Assembly (NCBI GenBank): GCA_009602725.1
Contig: WELB01000216.1
Location: 153,824 to 191,356 of the forward strand
Length of the DNA stretch: 37,533 nucleotides
DNA from: Spirogloea muscicola
Lineage: Eukaryota; Streptophyta; Zygnematophyceae; Spirogloeales; Spirogloeaceae
Direction of reading: 5' to 3'
Shown here: one piece after another, positions 4,801-34,300 of the stretch
Numbering within the stretch: position 1 is the first letter of the stretch
Layout: each line of letters begins with the position of its first letter
Translations under genes and position numbers: made by a program
The notes under the pieces: model-generated
The model's input: the letters and a program-made list of their open reading frames with translations, nothing else
Databases searched by the model: none
What the model was told of the DNA's origin: nothing

Positions 4801-7800
4801 TCAACTTCAGTGGAGACTGAAGCATGGACAAAAACGGGGTATTCACATAAAACAGGTGGGAAGGAGTATTGCCAGTGCTGTAGCAATCACTGAAAGAAAG
4901 CAACTGCATCAAAATTCCAGTCTCCTCTTACGCAGGATGCAGCAAACACCTCTCCACGATTGCATCAGGCTACTTGCCAGCTAAGCAATCAGGAACAACT
5001 GTAAGGACTTGCCATATATATGCAGAAAGATTGCTGTTACAGGCAAGCGGTTGCTGTTACAGGCAATGCACAAGCCTACCGTATCCCGACTGGCTGGCCA
5101 GTCGACTCTGAACTTGTAGTCTTCTGGCAGGGGCACAAAGCACCGCTCAAACTCTTGAGGAGGAGGGCAATGTCGCTCCCTGTGTTGGAAGTGGTGTCTG
5201 GACCTCAAAGCTTTGATGGCCTTTGTGTTGTCTAAGCAGGGAATGTAGTCAGTTTTGCTTTCTGGGCAGATCGAATAATCGTGGCTCTCGTTCTCGTCAT
5301 CCACGACTTGGACCAGACTTTCTCCTTGTCCAACCCCAGCTTGATTATTGTCTACATTTTGCCCCGTGCCTGCAAGCAAGACATTACTGTGACGTTCTTC
5401 AATATGTACAACAGTCTCAAGTGATCGTACATATCTTTTGAATGTGACTGGGCAGCTTCACATCCAGTCTATGAAGTATCGATGTGTTCGTTTTGCAAAA
5501 CAAGCCACATGGTAGTGCAAAGTAATAGAAGAAGGCCGTGCCATCCTATGAGATCAATATAAGCATCTGCAGAGCTACAAGTGCTTGAGAACGGAGCATA
5601 CTGGCTTACCTGCACCATCAGGCCCCTTCTCAAATGTGTTTTCCACTATAGACTCTGTTCTCTGCGATTCAAGATCAGTTGAAGGGCTCTCCTTGGCTTC
5701 GTTCTCAAGCTCTGCGTTGGCTCCAACCGCTTCCTTGGTTGCACTATCAACCTCTACCTCGCCTGCATGTCCACTTTCTTCCATATTGCTTGGAGACTCA
5801 GATTGGCCTCCTTGTTCCTCTTGCTGGCCCTTGTCCTGCACCCCATCCCCGTCATTTAGCAATCTATTAAAGTCTTTTCCTTGACTCGTAAGGTAATCTG
5901 AGGCTTCTTCTTAATACCATCTATTTCTATTGGTGCATCACCAACTTCATCTACCTTGTCCTCGCCTTGGCTGCTGTCGCCCTGGCCTGCAGGCTCAGGG
6001 GCCTCACTCAAGGCTTCACCTCCCTCTTTACCATCGCCGCCTTCGTCTACCTTGTCCTCGACTTGGCTATTGCTGCTCTCGCCAGCAGGCTCAGGAACTT
6101 CATTCGATGCTTCGCCTGCTGCTTCTCCATCGTCACCATTGTTTAGCTTGCCCTCGCCTTGGCTATTGCTGCTCTCGCCAGCAGGCTCAGGAGCCTCAAC
6201 CGAGGCTTCACCTGCTGCTTCTCCATCGCCACCTTCGACTACCTTGTCCTCGCCTTGGCTATTATCACTTTGGCCAGCAGGCTCAGGGACCTCATCCACG
6301 GCTTCGCCTGCTGCTTCTCCGTCGCCACCTTCAACTACCTTGTCCTCGCCTTGGCTATCGCTGCCTTGGCCAGCAGGCTCAGGGACCTCATTCAAGGCTC
6401 CGCCTGCTGCTTCTCTGTCGCCGCCTTCCACCACCTTGTCCTCGCTTTGGCTATCGGCGCTCTGGCCAGCAGGCTCAGGGACCTCATTCAAGGCTTCGCC
6501 TGCTGCTTCTCTGTCGCCGCCTTCGACTACCTTGTCCTCGCCTTGGCCATCAACAGTCTGGCCAGCAGGCTCAGGGACCTCATTCAAGACTTCGCCTGCT
6601 GCTTCTCCATCACCACCTTCGTCTACCTTGTCCTCGCCTTGGCCATCGCTGCTCTGGCCAGCAGGCTCAGGGACCTCATTTATAGCTTCGCCTGCTGCAT
6701 CTCTGTCGCCAAATTCGTCTGCCTTGTCCTCACCTTGGCTTTCGCCGTTCTGCCCAGCAGGCTCAGGGACCTCATTGGTAGCTTCCCCTGCTGCTTCTCC
6801 ATCGCCACCTTCGTCTACCTTGTCCTCGCCTTGGCTATTGCTGCTCTGGCCAGCAGGCTCAGGGACCTCATCTATGGCTTCGCCTGCTGCTTCTCCACCT
6901 TGAGAAGTATCTGCGACGCTTTGGCTTTCCTGAAGAGAAGTAAAATTGCTCGTGAACACGAGTAAGCTAAGTGAAGCATTAGCAAAGCAGGTCAATGGCG
7001 ACGGTTGGACAGATTAGCAGATCACAATGTCATATGCTTGACAGACCTCCAAGTCAGGGCCTGACTCCTCCTGCCGGTCTTGCTTTGGCGTTGTCACTTC
7101 CTCGCGCAATTCCTCGGCCTCCATCTTCGCCAGGGACTCAAGCGCACCCTTAACGTCGGTGTCAATGGACTCGCTGATGGTAGGAGTTGGCACTGTGCTT
7201 GCGTCATTGTTCCTTGGCGTTTGGGGCTTCGCCTTTAGAAAGGAGGACGGGTCTAGGCTGTCATCAAGCTGTGACGAGGAGGCAAAAGATCAGACTCAGA
7301 CAAGCTCCAGTGGATAGCAGGTCCTCAACTTGTGCATGCCAAGCAGATCTTGTCAGCAGTTGCAGTGTGGGTGCTGTCATCAATGTCCATCTTGTACCGG
7401 AGGAACAAGGTGCTGTAGGAAGTGAAAGCACAGGCACTAACTGCGAGATGCAAGTGCAAGCAAGAGAATGAGTAGCATCACAGCAATTCCCAGGAGCTCA
7501 GCATAGAGAGGTGGCGAGAAACTTCCATCAACTCCACAGTTACACGAAAGCCAGACTATGTTAACAACAACCATAATTGTAAGAAGCCAGAGAGGAAGGA
7601 CGCTTATGGACGCTGTCCAAAACTTACATACCTCAAAGATGGATTCTACCTCCACATTTTTCTCTGGCGCTGTCCTTATTGCTTGGTCCTCCGCGTACAC
7701 AGCTGTCTGGTCAATCTGTATGCTGGGCAGCGGTGGTCTGAAGGCCCACACGCCAAGCACAACGAGCGCCACGCATAATGCCCCTGGAGGACGCCAAGGC

Positions 7801-26405: not shown

Positions 26406-26789
<384 letters not shown>

Positions 26790-26801
26790 GGAGAGCCACA
26801 C

Positions 26802-27099
26802 CGATGAGCCAGTCGTTCTCCCAGTGCGTGCCGGCGTAGCAGGTGGGGTAGAGCACGGCGTTGGCCCTGGCGGCGTCCAGGCGGCCCCAGGTGCGGAAGG
26901 CCAGCCAGGCGCCCGGCAGCACGCGCCCGCACTCGAGCGCCAGGTCGCCCACCTCGAAGCGCTCGCAGGCGCGCCGCTCCGCTGCGCAGCCACCGCCGCC
27001 GGGCTGAGCCCGAGGTTTGAGCCCTGGCGCCCTGAATGTGAACCCTAATTCGCCCTATTAGGGTTTCTTCTCACCCAGCGTCATGGCGCGGGGGTCCAT
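26802..27099 (-). pseudogene. N-terminal exons of a homoserine O-acetyltransferase-like hydrolase
   Basis: Exon 26981-26802 encodes FEVGDLALECGRVLPGAW, LAFRTWGRLDAARANAVLY and PTCYAGTHWENDWLIG. This is the start of a MetX-like alpha/beta hydrolase (YxLGDFxLxxGxxLPxAxLAYxTYG ... FPTWYTGTH) and includes the oxyanion-region GTH. A short first exon 27099-27075 (MDPRAMTLG) fits in phase through a 93-bp intron with GTGAGA and GCGCAG ends; that exon is tentative. The donor after LIG leads straight into the CT array. It probably belongs to the same gene as 24647-24948, but nothing in between completes it. Confidence 0.72.
27041..27066. repeat. Telomere-type inverted pair (AACCCTAA / TTAGGGTTT)
   Basis: AACCCTAATTCG followed by CCTATTAGGGTTT forms two telomere motifs facing each other, within the short putative first intron of the acetyltransferase-like gene. 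Confidence 0.8.
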
Positions 27100-27239
27100 G
27101 GCCGCCGCCGCCGGCGCTGCTGCCGGCGGGCCCACGTGGGCGCCCCCGTGGCCCCGGGCTCCAACTTCACCTGGCCAGGAAGAATGCGGCTGCTGATAAT
27201 TATAAGAGCGGCTGTAATGGAAAAGAGAAAGCGGCTGCT

Positions 27240-27495
27240 GATATGAAAGAATCGGCTGTGAAATGCCAGCCAGATGCATACAGGTGTTCATGACGGAGCC
27301 AAAGGCTAGGCAGACAGGGCGCCCTCAATACCCCCGTGTCAGCAGTAGGAAGTCAGATAGGAAAAGGAAGAGAGAAAGCGCAGCCACATTGACTGGTGGC
27401 TGGGAGAGGACAGCCCAAAGGAATGCACAAGGTCTGAAGGAGCCGGAGTGCTGAAGGACTAAGACATCAGCAAGGGGACGCTCAGTAACCTCAGC
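27240..27495 (-). mobile_element. LINE-type 3' tail with two hairpin repeats
   Basis: Read on the minus strand, GAGGTTACTGAGCGTC (about 27475-27490) is the family's terminal Gly-Tyr-stop and following bases. It is followed by a B-type hairpin unit (27391-27425; CAGCCACC..CAATGTGGC in the minus sense) and another relic, GGCTGTGAAATGCCAGCC, near 27247. It lies tail-out and abuts a plus-strand copy that starts at 27500. Confidence 0.6.
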
Positions 27496-27499
27496 GGTC

Positions 27500-27700
27500 C
27501 ATGGCCCACGCTCTGCACCTGCGAGCTGGCCGTGCTCTCGCTGCGGGCTCTGGCTTTCGTCAGGCCTCCGGCTTTCGTGGCGGCGCTCCAGCTCCCCAAG
27601 TTAGCTTGTCAGATTTGTTTGTGCTCACCCGTGGGTACTAATGTCATCTTAGGTACCTTAGATTAGGTCTCCGTATTATGTAGCATTGTTTAGTCTGCAC
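27500..27700 (+). mobile_element. LINE-type C-terminal fragment (plus strand)
   Basis: An open frame 27501-27641 encodes AHALHLRAGRALAAGSGF and ends LSDLFVLTRGY-stop. It matches the C-termini of the minus-strand copies at 28433 (LHLRAGRALAAASGSG ... SDLRLLSRGY) and 30378 (AHALHQKAGRALAG ... SDLYVLTRGY). It is heavily 5'-truncated. The following UTR differs from the other subfamilies. Confidence 0.78.
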
Positions 27701-27779
27701 TCGACTCTGCCTGAACAATGTATTGGCTTGAATTGGCCTCCCTTTCAATTCATGCGCCCCGCGCGCCTTCTCTCTCTCT

Positions 27780-27996
27780 CTCTTTCGTCAGGGTGATAGC
27801 TTCCCGGCAGCTAGTCTGTCGGATCTGAGGCTCCTCACTCGTACTTATTGAGTGATCCATCCTCCCCCTGTTTTACCATTGCATCCTCAGGCCCCTTTGT
27901 AGCTGCTCACCGCTCTTAGGCCCCTCTGAACCTTTGTGAATTCTTTTTGGGCTGGCTTTTCGCAGCCCTTGCCCCCATTGGGAGTGCCACTTCTTC
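27780..27996 (+). mobile_element. Second plus-strand LINE-type 3' tail with hairpin repeat
   Basis: The frame GDSFPAASLSDLRLLTRTY-stop (stop at 27849-27851) repeats the family C-terminus. Its 3' UTR runs into TTTTTGGGCTGGCTTTTCGC and CAGCCCTTGCCCCCATTGGG, a complete hairpin unit ending CACTTCTTC at 27996. It lies only about 140 bp after the end of the previous tail. Confidence 0.75.
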
Positions 27997-28039
27997 TCTA
28001 GTCAAAAAGCTGCAAGTCGGAGTAAAGAAAGTGCCCGCC

Positions 28040-28300
28040 CTATGAGGATAGGGGCTGGAAAAGCCAGCCCAAAAGAATGGGCAAAGTACGAGAAGGGGGC
28101 CAGGGGAAGAAAGGAAGAAAGCGCGGCCAGATTGACTGGTGGCTGGGAAAGGCCAGCCCAGGGGAAACGCTAAGATAGACAAGCACAATAAGAAACAAAG
28201 CAGCTACGAGTCACTCAGTAACCCCTGCTAAGGTGCCGCAAATCAGAGATGCTAGGCTCCTGGAAGTGGGTCCCCTGGCCAGAGCCAGAGGCAGCGCGAA
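28040..28300 (-). mobile_element. Minus-strand LINE-type 3' tail, tandem copy
   Basis: Minus-strand coding ends PSISDLRHLSRGY at 28215. Downstream (to about 28040) are a B-type hairpin unit (28105-28165) and an A-type unit (about 28040-28085; GGGGCTGGAAAAGCCAGCCC plus AAAAGAATG). It is a second, 3'-only copy placed head-to-tail after the longer element that ends at 28433. Confidence 0.72.
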
Positions 28301-29890
28301 GAAAGTGCTCGCCCATTGAGAATAGGGGCTGGAAAAGCCAGCCCAAAAAAGAATGAACAGAGTACGAGAAGGGGGCCAGGGGAAGCGCTAAGAAAAACAA
28401 GCACACAGAGAAACAAAGCAGCTACGAATCACTCAGTAACCTCTGCTGAGCAGCCGCAGGTCGGAGATGCTAGGCTCGTGGAAGTGGGTCCCCTGGCCAG
28501 AGCCAGAGGCAGCAGCGAGGGCTCTGCCGGCACGAAGGTGCAGCGTCGGGGCCATAGACCTCTGCAGCGAGACGGCCAGGCGCATACGATGCACTTGCGC
28601 CAGCGATTCGGCTGCAGGGAAGTCCACCGGCTCCCCATGGAAGCGACGGGCGATGGTGTGGCGGGCGAGCTGGGCGAGCAGCTCGAGCCACCGAGCGCCC
28701 AGCGCCCCATGGGTGTCAATTGCCAACGGAAAGAACTCTTCTTCCCGCGGATGATCTGCGTACTTGAGCTCTTTAGCCCGAGCGGCGCAGGCGACCGCAT
28801 AGCCAGCCTTGGTGGCACATTGGGCTGGGTGTGAGCGGTCGTATGCATCGGTGGTCACCACGTCCAGGAGAAGACGTGGCCCGCCGGCCTGTGGGGTGGC
28901 CACCAGGACTACACGCCGGGCGTGGAGACCGTCGGCCCTTTCCTGGATCGGCATGATGCCGGAGTGCTCCGCTGCCACGGAGAAGCCAGCCTCCAACAGG
29001 ATGCCATGCATCGCATCGCGGAGGCAGTCGTGGGCCGCTGTCCGCTCGCCGACGTGGGCGCAGCGCAGAACATGAGCGGCCAGCTCCCCAGACTCGGCCC
29101 CTCGCTCGCCGCATACACACTGACGCACGCCCTGGAGATATGGAGGCGGCAGCCCCAGGAGCCAGTGGGCGGCAATGCGAAATCCCTCATCGGGTAGAGC
29201 GAGGGCGTCATTGATGGGGAGGGCCTGAAGCCACGCCGCTGCCCCCGGGGAGCAGGCCGATTGAAGTCTCGCGCGCCCTCGCAAGTCGGCCTCGGGGAGC
29301 TGCAGCACGGCGGTGGTGTAGGCGGCCTTGTCGACCACAGCCGCGAAGCACGCTTGACTGCGCAGGTCACCGGTGTGCGCGAGGTGCGCAAAGGAGACCG
29401 CCTGGCGTGCCAGGTCCGGGTGCGCCGCGAGCAGCTCCTGGTGGGCGGAGCGAAGCAACACCTGGAACGGCAGCGGGCCATGTCGACCTCCACCACCGCC
29501 TGCTCCAGTGCACGCCGGCCGTGGACCATGAAGCGCTGGGCCACGGAGGCGGCAGTCTGCGCCCAGCTGCCGAGGTATGCAGCCCGGCAAGAACGGGCGA
29601 GCGGGCGCAGGCCGAGACCACCGTGGCTGAGGGGTAGCGCCGCCTGGTGGATAGGGGCTGGCGACTGGAGGAAGCCCTGGTGACGGACCAGGGCCGCCAA
29701 GCTCGCCACCATGCCTGCATCAAAATCCCGTACGCCGCCAACGCCCCTGGGGACAGCGGAGTGGCCCGCGTCAAGTACTGGGGCCGCTGCCCAATGGCCT
29801 TGGTCAACATAGCCAACGACAGCTGCATGTCGTCCAGCTCGGGAAGCCGGGCCGCAGGCTGAAGGCAGCGAGGACTCTGCCTTGTCCATT
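28301..29890 (-). mobile_element. 5'-truncated non-LTR (LINE-type) retroelement, post-RT region, frameshifted
   Basis: Reading from 29890 leftwards, three frames are needed. The first has LPELDDMQLSLAMLTKAIGQ, the second ALPLSHGGLGLRPL and AAYLGSWAQTAA. The third (about 29500-28433) has AAAWLQALPIND and FRIAAHWLLGLPPPY, then a zinc-knuckle-like CVCGERG..AAHVLRCAH (CX1CX12HX3C). It continues RLLLDVVTTDAYD, FFPLAIDTHGALG, FHGEPVDFPAAESLAQVHRM and ends SDLRLLSRGY at 28433. This order is typical of the region downstream of reverse transcriptase in algal LINE-type elements; the RT core itself is missing. At least two frameshifts make it non-functional. Its 3' UTR (28301-28432) contains an A-type hairpin unit near 28305-28350. 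Confidence 0.8.
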
Positions 29891-30115
29891 CCTTTGGGCT
29901 GGCCTTTCCCAGCCCAGCCCAGCCCAGCGGCTGCTTAGCAGAGGTTACTGAGTGATTCTCCTGTAGCATCTTTGGCTTTTGTCCATTCTTTTTTGGCTGG
30001 CTTGTGCCAGCCCCTCTCTTCTAAGGGCGAGCTTTTCCTTTCCCAGCCCCTCGCCCCTCTGGGAAAACGTGTGTTTCCCAGCCACCAGTCAATCTGGCCG
30101 CGATTTCTTCTGCCG
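29885..30115 (+). mobile_element. Plus-strand LINE-type 3' tail with hairpin repeats
   Basis: CGGCTGCTTAGCAGAGGTTACTGAGTGATTC (starting 29929) matches the end and stop context of the minus-strand element. It is followed by TTGTCCATTC and hairpins near 29985-30017 and 30043-30110 (the last B-type, CCAGCCACCAGTCAATCTGG). Before it, 29898-29930 is an expanded hairpin arm, GGGCTGGCCTTTCCCAGCCC with extra CAGCC units. Confidence 0.68.
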
Positions 30116-30321
30116 GCACGAAAGGTGCAGCGCGCGGGCCATAGACCTCTGCATGCCCATTGAGGATAGGGGCTGGAAAAGCCAGCCTAAACGAATGAAC
30201 AGTGACTGCAGAGTCTGCAGCGAGACGGCGCATACGGTACACTTGCGCCAGCGACCCGGCTGCACGAAAGTCTACCGGCTCCCCATGAAGGACGTGTGTA
30301 ATAAGAGCTGGGGAGGCCATG
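30116..30321 (-). mobile_element. LINE-type ORF fragment interrupted by a hairpin unit
   Basis: On the minus strand HGEPVDFRAAGSLAQVYRMR matches the 28433 element (FHGEPVDFPAAESLAQVHRM). The alignment resumes at the codons for SMAPTLHLRAG after a 66-bp insertion. It is a third subcopy, truncated at both ends. Confidence 0.78.
30153..30213 (-). mobile_element. 61-bp hairpin unit inserted in a LINE frame, with 5-bp direct repeats
   Basis: Compared with the uninterrupted copy at 28521-28640, this copy carries extra sequence between two TCTGC pentamers (30148-30152 and 30214-30218); the intact copy has one. The insert contains GCCCATTGAGGATAGGGG, the hairpin GGGCTGGAAAAGCCAGCC and a CGAATGAACAG box, all shared with the unit at 28305-28360. 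The arrangement looks like an insertion with a target-site duplication; template switching during copying is the alternative. Confidence 0.7.
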
Positions 30322-31010
30322 TGTGGCCAAGCACAAAGGCAAGCACATTGACAAATGTACGTTATCTGCTGACCCGCTCAGTAACCACGAGTCAGCACAT
30401 AGAGGTCGCTAACTGATGCTCGAATACCGGACGGCAATAGACAAGCTCTTGAACTACCAGCCAAGGCTCGACCAGCTTTCTGATGCAACGCATGAGCCTG
30501 AGCTCGCTGCAGACAAGCTGACACTCGACGTCGCAAAATTGACAGATAGGCTGCCGGCATGCCCATGTGGGCTGGAACCATATCCTCGCGTCGTGCATAT
30601 ACCAGACTCGCTATGTTCTCAAGTAGGGTATGGAAGCGAGGACCCAAGCAGCCGAAAGTGTCGATTGCGGCCGGGAGAAGGTGGTCGCTGCGGGGGTAGT
30701 CAGAGTAGTGTCGGAGCTTTCTCTGCTCAGCACCTCCCACTGCGTGGCCAGCAATGTGTGTGAAAGCGGAACTCTTGTATGCCTCGGTCACCACCACATC
30801 CACCAAGGCTCGTGGGCCTCCGCCAGGTTGTACACCCACAATGTCCAGGGTGCGATGGTGATGGCGACCCTGGGAATCCGTGGTGATGGGCACTACATTG
30901 ATTACTTCCACAATGGCGCGGTAGCCGGCGTCGCGCATCAAGCCCGCCAGGGCGTCTTGTAGGAGATTGTGGACATACAGAGGGTGCCAGGCGAGGCGAG
31001 GTCCCACCAA
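30322..31010 (-). mobile_element. 5'-truncated LINE-type element with candidate nuclease module
   Basis: The minus frame from about 31005 to 30378 reads LYVHNLLQDALAGLMRDAGY, then RTLDIVGVQPGGGPRALVDV and VTEAYKSSAF. It continues QRKLRHYSDYPRSDHLLPAAIDTFGCLGPRF, AHALHQKAGRALAG and ends ASVSDLYVLTRGY. It is open throughout, so it is a younger copy than its neighbours. The segment LD-X14-D with a following D-V-V-V and K resembles the R2-type restriction-like endonuclease core (PD-X12-14-D). The 5' end is truncated near 31010; the 3' UTR reaches about 30322. Confidence 0.78.
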
Positions 31011-31104
31011 CAGTAAAATGAAGAGAAAAGAAGATATGAATGGGGCTAAGGAGAAAGACGAAATTAATTGCACGTAACCGGGGCCTTAACCCCCGGCGCT
31101 GCAT

Positions 31105-31310
31105 TTTTAAGCCCTAACCCAGCACCTCGTATCTTGACCCGAGCCTAGACCTGAAGTGCTAAGCAGATCTTAATCCCTCCAAATCCAAAACCCTAACTCT
31201 CACCCCACAAACGCAGTAGCTTGTATGTTGACCCTGAGCCTGGACCCAGACTACTTTAGCGTATTTCAATCCATCCAAAGCCACCCAGAACCCTAAACCC
31301 TACACCAGAA
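31105..31310. repeat. Degenerate tandem duplication with telomere motifs upstream of the RCC1 gene
   Basis: Two units of about 85-100 bp share, in order, GTATCTTGACCCGAGCCTAGACC / GTATGTTGACCCTGAGCCTGGACC (shortened), AATCCCTCCAAATCCA / AATCCATCCAAAGCCA and terminal ACCCTAA motifs. The second ends AACCCTAAACCCTAC eleven to thirteen bases before the start codon region at 31321. Confidence 0.7.
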
Positions 31311-31320
31311 AGGCAGCAGC

Positions 31321-34300
31321 ATGCGCTTGTCGAGCCTCCGCGGCCGCCGTTTCGCCCAGTTCCTGCAAAGCGGCGGCGATGCCAGCGGCGTGGTCGGGGC
31401 GGCGTTTGCGGCGTGGGGCAACGGCGACCACGGGCGGCTGGGCCTGGGTGCGCCGCCGCGCTCCGGGGCACTGCCCGTTGCGCTCGGTAGCGCCGCCCTG
31501 GCCGGCTGCGGCGGCGCCCGCCAGGTCGCCTGCGGTGGCGCCCACACCCTCTTCCTCACCGGTCTGGGCCCACCGTCCACCTCCCTCCCTCATCCCCTTG
31601 CTCCCAGCTAGCGACCTCTACGTGCTGACTCGTGGGTGTTGAGCGGGTCAGCTTAGCAGCAGGTGGTGTACACCTGACAACGTGCTTGCCGTTGTACTTG
31701 GCCACTCAGGCCCTCCATCACTCATACACACTCCATTCTTTCACACAAAGTGCACCACTGTTTGCTTGATTGGAGCGCAGAGTTGCCAAATGCTTTCAGA
31801 ATCTGATAATATAATGCCAAGTACTCTAGTTGCGCCAGCTTTATTGGCAACTCCTGACTTGGGCAGCTGCCGGCTGCGGCGCAGACTCTGGCGCTGTCTT
31901 CGCTGCGGGTCTCAACGATCGCGGCCAGCTCGGGCTAGCCGTCGCCGTCGAGCGTAGCCTGGTGCGACCCCTCGACGCCCTCACGCTCGTGCACCTCCTT
32001 CCTCTTGTTCCCTGCCCTGTTTGGCTCTCTCTCCCTCCAACTCCTAGCGCTGCCTACATTCTCCTCCCTCCCCCCTGTACGCTCTTTCCTCTGTCCTCTG
32101 TCCTCTGCCTCACCTCTGTCCTCTGTCTCCTCCCTCCCTCTGCAATTCCTGCCTTTCTCCCTCTCTTCGTTCTGCAGTGATTGACAGGCTCCTTGCTCCT
32201 CCCTCTTACCTCCGTCCTGCCTCCCTAGCTCCAACAACTGCAGCCGCAGTGGCCTGCAGGAGCCCCAGCATGTCGCCGGCCTGCCCGCGCCTGCCCGCAG
32301 CGTTGCCGCTGGCCACCACTTCAGCTCCTGCATTACAGGTGTGACGCTCCAGCCAATCCTCCTCCTTTACAGAGACTCCTATTGAAAGCCACCAGTAAAA
32401 CATGCCCTAAATCATAATCCTAAACCCTTACCTTAAACCCGTAACCCTAAACCCTATGCCCTAAGAATTTCAAGCCCTAAAACCTAGAAGGCTAGACTCT
32501 GATGAACATTCCTCTGCGCCACTGCAGAGGACGGCGACCTCTGGGTGTGGGGCGACAACCGGCAAGACCAGCTCGGCCTTGGAACCAGTGCGCATCAGTC
32601 TCAGTCCCTGCTTGGCCCCATGCTTCTGTGGCCCTCGCCTGACCCAGCACTTATGCGAGCTTACACCTCATGGTGTGGCAGGCTCTGGCCGCTTGGCGCA
32701 TGTGCCACAGCGCTTGGAGGCGCTGGCGGGCGCGGATGTTGTCGGCGTGGCCTGCGGCGCCAGCCATGCGCTTGCTGTCCTTGGTCTGGCCACCAACGTG
32801 CTCATGCTTCCTCCCTCTGTATTCTCTCCAATCAACCTCCCTGCTGAACTACTCCCAGCTTTACTCTATCAATAATCATTGTTAGGCCCTCAACCTCCTG
32901 ACAGATTTGAGTAAACCATTAAATCTACCGTGCTTAAGATCTTAGTTCCTTCATACTTGTGCCCCCTAAGCCTAAGATTCTCATGCACAGCGAGTGCTGT
33001 GCTAGGATTCTGAGGCCAGAGGTGCGCAGACAGGGAAACACTGAAGTTCATGCACAATGCACACGATGGTAGTTGGCTGATGATTGAATTGCAGCCTTGA
33101 TGTGGTGGCGTTGGTTGGTGTGCTTGTGCAGGCAGCGGCGAGGTATATGCGTGGGGCGCCGGGGCGAGCGGCCAGCTCGGCCTTGGCACACAACCGCTCT
33201 TCCAGCGCCTGGCTGGCACTACCAGGTCCATCATCTTGCTTGCCATCCATCTGTCGTGATGCTGATTGCTGTGCTCTGCACCATATGAGTGCTTGTTTAG
33301 CTTCATCTGCTATATGGAGCCCCTCTGATGCCGCGCCTCTCGCCTGTGTCTGTGGCGCTGCATCTGGCAGTGAGCGGCTGCCACGCCTGCTGCGCACCCT
33401 CCAGGGCGTGAAGGTAGGTCCTTCCCTTCTTTACGCATTTTGATGTATGTGCGCACCAGCAGCATGTACCCTCTCCATGGCCCCCCTCTCTCTCCCCCTC
33501 TCAAGCCCCCACCTTCTTCCTGCCTCCACCTCTACAACATCAGCAGGGCCGTCTCCGTCTCTGTCAATGCAGTGCAACTCTGGCACCTAGTGCACTTGCA
33601 CTTTAGAAAGGGAGGGAGAGGCCGACTAGGGCCTTGGGTGGCCTTGCAGGTCACCAGCGTCGCGGCGGGGCACATGCATTCAGCGTGCACTTCTGGTGCG
33701 AGGCCCCAAGTCCCGGTCAGCGCTCGACATATGCTGCCTTGTCGTGGCGCAGACCATTCACCGTCCCTTTTACCTTCTCGCGCATTGCCACTGTACCTCC
33801 GTTTGCCGCTTCATGCCCTCCTTTCTCTCCTGTCCTTCTTACATCCTCTTTGTCCACCCTGTGTCTGGCTCTCATGGAGCTGCCGCGGCATCGCAGATGC
33901 CGGGGAGCTCTTCACATTCGGCGGCAACCGCTTTGGTCAGCTTGTGCGTTGAATGACCTTCCTTTTCACCCTCTGCTTGGCATATCCCTTGAGACAGGCG
34001 GGGAAATGGAGTTGAGAGAGGGAGGGAGTGTTGCTCATAAGTTGCTACTCCGCCAGACGCCTAGGTCTCCTTAATACCAAGGTTCTCTAGAACCCATTTG
34101 TCAAGTCTGCAATGAAATAAGTTAACAAAGGATCAAGGTTATGCAAATAGACAAAGATAAGTATACATCTGATCTCCAGGTGCATGCTTGCAGGGCATAG
34201 GGACCGAGCGCGACGTGCCGCAACCTGTGCTCATTGACGGCCTGCGAGGTGTCGAGGGCGTCGCTTGCGGTGGCTACCACACCGCTGCGCTTGCAGGTCT

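Follow-up and report, generated by a model that had tools for sequence, protein, structure and literature searches.

A 60-bp hairpin-bearing insert in the Spirogloea muscicola genome is probably a strongly 5'-truncated LINE copy

A 60-bp insert carrying a short hairpin, located in a 37,533-nt stretch of Spirogloea muscicola DNA (hereafter the window; contig WELB01000216.1 of assembly GCA_009602725.1, positions 153,824 to 191,356, forward strand), probably arose when a LINE (non-LTR retrotransposon) was copied by target-primed reverse transcription with very strong 5' truncation, a reading to which we give a probability of roughly 80%. Four observations underlie it: the unit is a LINE tail, the family has a constant 3' end, its 5' ends vary, and target duplications are found. 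As an insertion the window insert is of an ordinary kind, and it does not represent a new miniature element. The features concerned, with the basis of each assignment, are as follows.

28025..28074, minus strand: tail of a further LINE copy belonging to the insert's family (repeat comparison)
28298..28432, minus strand: 3' UTR of the LINE with ORF 28433..29719, with the same hairpin tail and ACTTTCTTC at its end (ORF-end comparison)
28433..29719, minus strand: C-terminal part of the ORF of a LINE from the insert's family, ending in SISDLRLLSRGY and the stop at 28433-28435 (translation, ORF-end comparison)
30116..30290, ends approximate, minus strand: older LINE ORF fragment, recipient of the insert (alignment, repeat comparison)
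30148..30153, plus strand: TCTGCA target duplication, copy 1 (sequence letters)
30154..30213, sense on the minus strand: 60-bp insert, a 5'-truncated LINE 3' tail without the last 13 nt of the tail (alignment to the tail reference)
30171..30187, minus strand: GGCTGG-AAAAG-CCAGCC hairpin of the LINE tail (letters and predicted fold)
30214..30219, plus strand: TCTGCA target duplication, copy 2 (sequence letters)

The insert (30154-30213) lies within the older LINE fragment and is bounded by exact 6-bp TCTGCA repeats, as read directly from the letters; the net gain at the insertion site is 66 bp, i.e. the 60-bp insert plus one TCTGCA repeat. The original prediction, which had placed an insertion with a short direct repeat in a LINE fragment, was therefore right about the event and the repeat, but its lengths (a 5-bp TCTGC repeat and a 61-bp insert) need correction. 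It had also described the fragment as aligning to 28521-28640 except for one block; alignment of 30116-30290 with this region confirmed colinearity apart from one large block, to which a 5-bp gap and single substitutions must be added as minor differences. Among the loci then fetched, TCTGCA was single and uninterrupted in 16 of 19 distinct places with the same LINE motif, so that a deletion in the other copies, rather than an insertion in the window, was rejected. The remaining 3 places (L002, L003 and the second place in L005) are interrupted a few bases further on by other events. The breaks in these three loci are all about 10 bp or less from the site of the window insertion in the LINE ORF, which the choice of query may explain; that in L002 is an independent nearby tail insertion with ATAGA on each side and a complete 3' end.

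Against the tail reference, the alignment of the window insert starts 62 nt from the 3' end and stops 13 nt before it. The insert has three oddities: i) the tail lacks its final 13 nt, ii) there is a TGC microhomology at that end, and iii) extra nucleotides are present at the 5' junction, including the reverse complement of the target, CTCTGCAG. An automatic flank search gave just 5 shared nt for this copy, a length frequent by chance, and the target is partly palindromic (CTGCAG) and able to mimic short repeats.

Read on the minus strand, the hairpin unit forms the terminal part of a LINE 3' UTR, and this LINE is abundant in the genome. In 28 of 35 cases (loci L039-L068), the hairpin and the 3' end GGGCGAGCACTTTCTTC were reached within 180 nt of the ORF end (SDLRLLSRGY before the stop). 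The LINE whose 3' end the insert sequence matches has an ORF for a reverse transcriptase: a domain search of the LINE-family ORF detected RVT_1 (E 3.7e-16), and the only solved structures matched in a profile search at E values up to 0.01 were three R2 entries (best 8.1e-6), indicating an R2-like reverse transcriptase. The same kind of profile search gave no match to solved structures for the C-terminal region of the LINE; a low-confidence structure model suggests that the fold of this region resembles the R2 endonuclease. Pfam found no domain in three ORF pieces of the window. Related hairpin units nearby, as originally predicted, were located at 28025-28074 and 28299-28348. The original prediction had further supposed that the hairpin unit moves by itself, and had named a fixed position within LINE 3' UTRs as the finding that would speak against this; the 28 of 35 ORF ends largely bear out such a position, and no evidence was obtained for an independent 60-bp element.

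The genome surveyed comprises 153 Mb in 471 contigs. The hairpin 18-mer GGGCTGGAAAAGCCAGCC had 2,024 exact matches genome-wide and the 21-nt tail core adjoining the hairpin had 4,645, compared with 0 for the reversed control in each case, so the abundance of the hairpin is far above chance. When the first 30 of the 2,024 exact hairpin places were aligned, the full LINE 3' end was found at most 40 nt from the hairpin in 27 of them; in the sense orientation, the sequence 3' of the hairpin was constant up to GGGCGAGCACTTTCTTC, and matching 5' of the hairpin ended at differing points. The exceptions were L016 (hairpin inverted), L018 (altered) and L031 (cut short); the inverted hairpin of L016 (1480-1540) lies inside an otherwise normal tail. 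The original prediction had proposed to look for constant ends; the unit has one, that at the 3' side of the LINE, its 5' end being variable. With exact patterns of 21 to 22 letters, the tail core gave 4,645 matches, a pattern further up the UTR 1,960, and two overlapping ORF patterns 22 and 80, the ORF counts being unusable as a curve of decay with distance from the 3' end because the commonest ORF form (22 of 29 in the loci) has another letter there. A T follows TTCTTC in 30 of 38 copies (L070-L109), which hints at a target preference or at one more tail base. No Rfam match at the gathering score was found within window positions 27000-31500, and none of the paper titles listed in a literature search concerned this element.

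Truncation and target duplications were measured twice. The first measurement used 171 tails in the loci then fetched, of which 43 did not align and 128 did; 98 of the aligned tails end within 16 nt of the 3' end (terminal) and the other 30 align internally. In 69 tails tested for flanks, 21 had shared flanks of at least 7 nt, compared with about 3 expected by shuffling. Many of the 62-nt lengths in this measurement are seemingly tails of another LINE family and not truncations. At least 9 nt are missing at the 3' end in 5 of the 98 terminal tails, including the window copy, and some of the others possibly belong to other families.

The exact 3' end occurs at 1,365 genome places, and the second measurement took 40 loci from among the 100 listed first; 38 aligned and one of these ran off, leaving 37 copies, two of which begin at N runs. 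The retained lengths of these copies, all with an intact 3' end, range from about 34 to 928 nt with a median of 136 nt. All 35 readable 5' ends differ in length and there is no lump at the 5' side. Shared flanks of at least 7 nt were present in 13 of the 37 copies, compared with 1.4 expected and at most 4 in 300 shuffles, and were lacking in the other 24; the direct repeats reach 17 bp. Some alignment starts are not true truncation points, as families share tails and copies are nested, which makes individual rows less certain and leaves the excess of repeats unaffected. The constant 3' end, the varied 5' ends and the direct repeats together point to target-primed reverse transcription with 5' truncation. 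Since 10 of the 37 copies retain at most 80 nt, an insert of 60 bp is unremarkable, and good duplications do accompany tails no longer than the window insert, as in L094 (35 nt retained, 15-bp repeat) and L088 (56 nt, 17-bp repeat). The suggestion in the original prediction that the unit might be a repeated product of LINE copying is upheld as far as recurrence through LINE copying is concerned; the template switching that it invoked is unneeded.

The tail RNA is predicted to fold with the hairpin inside an outer helix, with a z score of -3.6 for the L055 UTR, -2.8 for the window tail (28299-28360) and -1.5 for the insert together with its two repeats. For the window tail, good folding is predicted for the complementary strand too (z -3.5), and which of the two strands matters is therefore not evident from folding alone. 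Among 28 cluster representatives, an outer helix of the type UUCAUU/AAUGGG or GUCCAU/AUGGGC scored best in only 6 and another helix in the rest, so these scores do not establish that it is conserved between families.

Several LINE families (L043, L045, L046, L053, L065 and window positions 30378-31085) have in common the C-terminal motif SDLxxLTRGY, followed by the stop, and several families with this motif have a GGCTGG...CCAGCC hairpin with differing loops. In some loci (L046, L007), the tail downstream of an ORF belongs to a different LINE family from the ORF itself, as a result of either a swap or a nested insertion. Elsewhere in the window there are an AG dinucleotide array of 195 copies (26407-26795), a tandem array of ten 96-bp units, the unit length being a multiple of three (5936-6897), and a short run of CCCTAAA-like telomere repeats (32405-32464).

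For the window insert, the proposed sequence of events would be as follows. The LINE protein may have bound the hairpin at the end of its RNA, nicked the target and reverse transcribed from the nick, i.e. target-primed reverse transcription. Reverse transcription would have stopped after about 60 nt, and the ends would have been joined, leaving the 6-bp target duplication. Pairing may have occurred between TGC at the nicked target end and a GCA located 9-11 nt from the RNA end, and such internal priming would explain why the end of the tail is absent from the window copy. The extra nucleotides at the 5' junction, partly the reverse complement of the target (CTCTGCAG), may reflect a snap-back; snap-back junctions and extra nucleotides have been described for an R2 protein (PMC11331408). 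The varied 5' ends, and the target duplication with empty sites, are those of a 5'-truncated LINE copy. The constant 3' end holds for the family (27 of the first 30 of 2,024 places), but the window copy itself departs from it by the missing 13 nt. Other points also count against this reading: the 6-bp duplication is at the short end, the automatic flank search gave 5 shared nt, the target is partly palindromic, the change of TGCTCG to TGCATG near the junction requires two substitutions, and most of the sampled copies (24 of 37) lack shared flanks of at least 7 nt.

The main rival for the window copy is a repair patch, in which end joining repaired a break in the older LINE fragment with filler DNA copied from a short stretch of a tail nearby, and target-primed reverse transcription played no part. 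We consider this unlikely, although the missing last 13 nt of the tail, the repeat of only 6 bp at a palindrome-like site and the extra nucleotides at one junction are consistent with it, and same-orientation tails 1.8-2.1 kb away match the insert (from 30154 to the hairpin end) at 32 of 34 and 31 of 34 positions. However, tails are near-identical genome-wide, so the match to the window tails does not indicate a neighbouring source, and the LINE 3' end together with the excess of direct repeats in the sampled tails argues that the LINE machinery commonly makes insertions of this size.

A broader proposal, improbable in our view, is that an R2-like LINE group lost its site specificity and spread mainly as minute tails from discrete short hairpin-tail RNAs acting in trans, the hairpin being the mobile unit at the RNA level and swapped between LINE families. 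For the insert itself, a slim chance is given to trans templates in the form of short RNAs of the tail, whether from a SINE or from LINE RNA that was processed or degraded; the tiny inserts would then be full copies of short RNAs. The 10 of 37 sampled copies that retain at most 80 nt would fit such templates, as would the recognition of the cognate 3' tail by the protein of two zebrafish LINEs (PMC4176376), but no common 5' end was seen, the 35 readable copies all differing in length. A SINE with a constant 5' end derived from a small RNA gene was rejected, there being no 5' lump among the 37 copies.

An independent status for the hairpin unit, as a miniature mobile element some 60 bp long, has a negligible probability: the many copies (4,645 exact tail cores) and the direct repeats flanking some short ones would suit it, but the only end that stays constant is the LINE 3' end, present at 27 of the first 30 of 2,024 places, the 5' ends scatter, and the hairpin occupies its LINE UTR position at 28 of 35 ORF ends. 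An autonomous hairpin element was rejected because of the scattered 5' ends and a 3' end identical to that of the LINE, as was a MITE or foldback element, which has two constant and often inverted ends, since the 5' ends scatter and the hairpin is internal to the tail.

With the insert read as a truncated LINE copy, a candidate for an unusually small mobile element is removed, and the hairpins found all over the genome have a clear reason. A dispersed and heavily truncating LINE group with an R2-like reverse transcriptase, several of whose families have similar hairpin tails, offers a modest resource for studying the choice of RNA tails by LINE proteins.

It is established that incomplete reverse transcription often leaves LINE copies truncated at the 5' end (PMC2881922), and those described here resemble 5'-truncated copies made by target-primed reverse transcription in their constant 3' end, scattered 5' ends and target duplications. 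They differ from the usual ones in the severity of truncation (median 136 nt in the 37 copies with an intact 3' end) and, for the window copy, in the lack of 13 nt at the 3' end. The tail is like those of stringent-type LINEs (zebrafish ZfL2, plant L1-clade LINEs and Chlamydomonas LINE/SINE pairs) in that a stem-loop lies near the end of the 3' UTR, here in more than one LINE family, with the stem kept and the loop varying. In stringent LINEs the protein binds the 3' stem-loop, and recognition of a general stem and a specific loop has been proposed (PMC4176376); a stem-loop tail has been reported for plant L1-clade LINEs, and LINE and SINE 3' ends are shared in Chlamydomonas (PMC3747384). These stringent-type LINEs belong to the L2 and L1 clades, whereas the LINE described here, with its putatively recognised hairpin, has an R2-like reverse transcriptase. 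R2 insertion is site-specific in rDNA (PMC11331408), whereas the present LINE copies, rather than sharing this specificity, are dispersed over many contigs with differing flanks.
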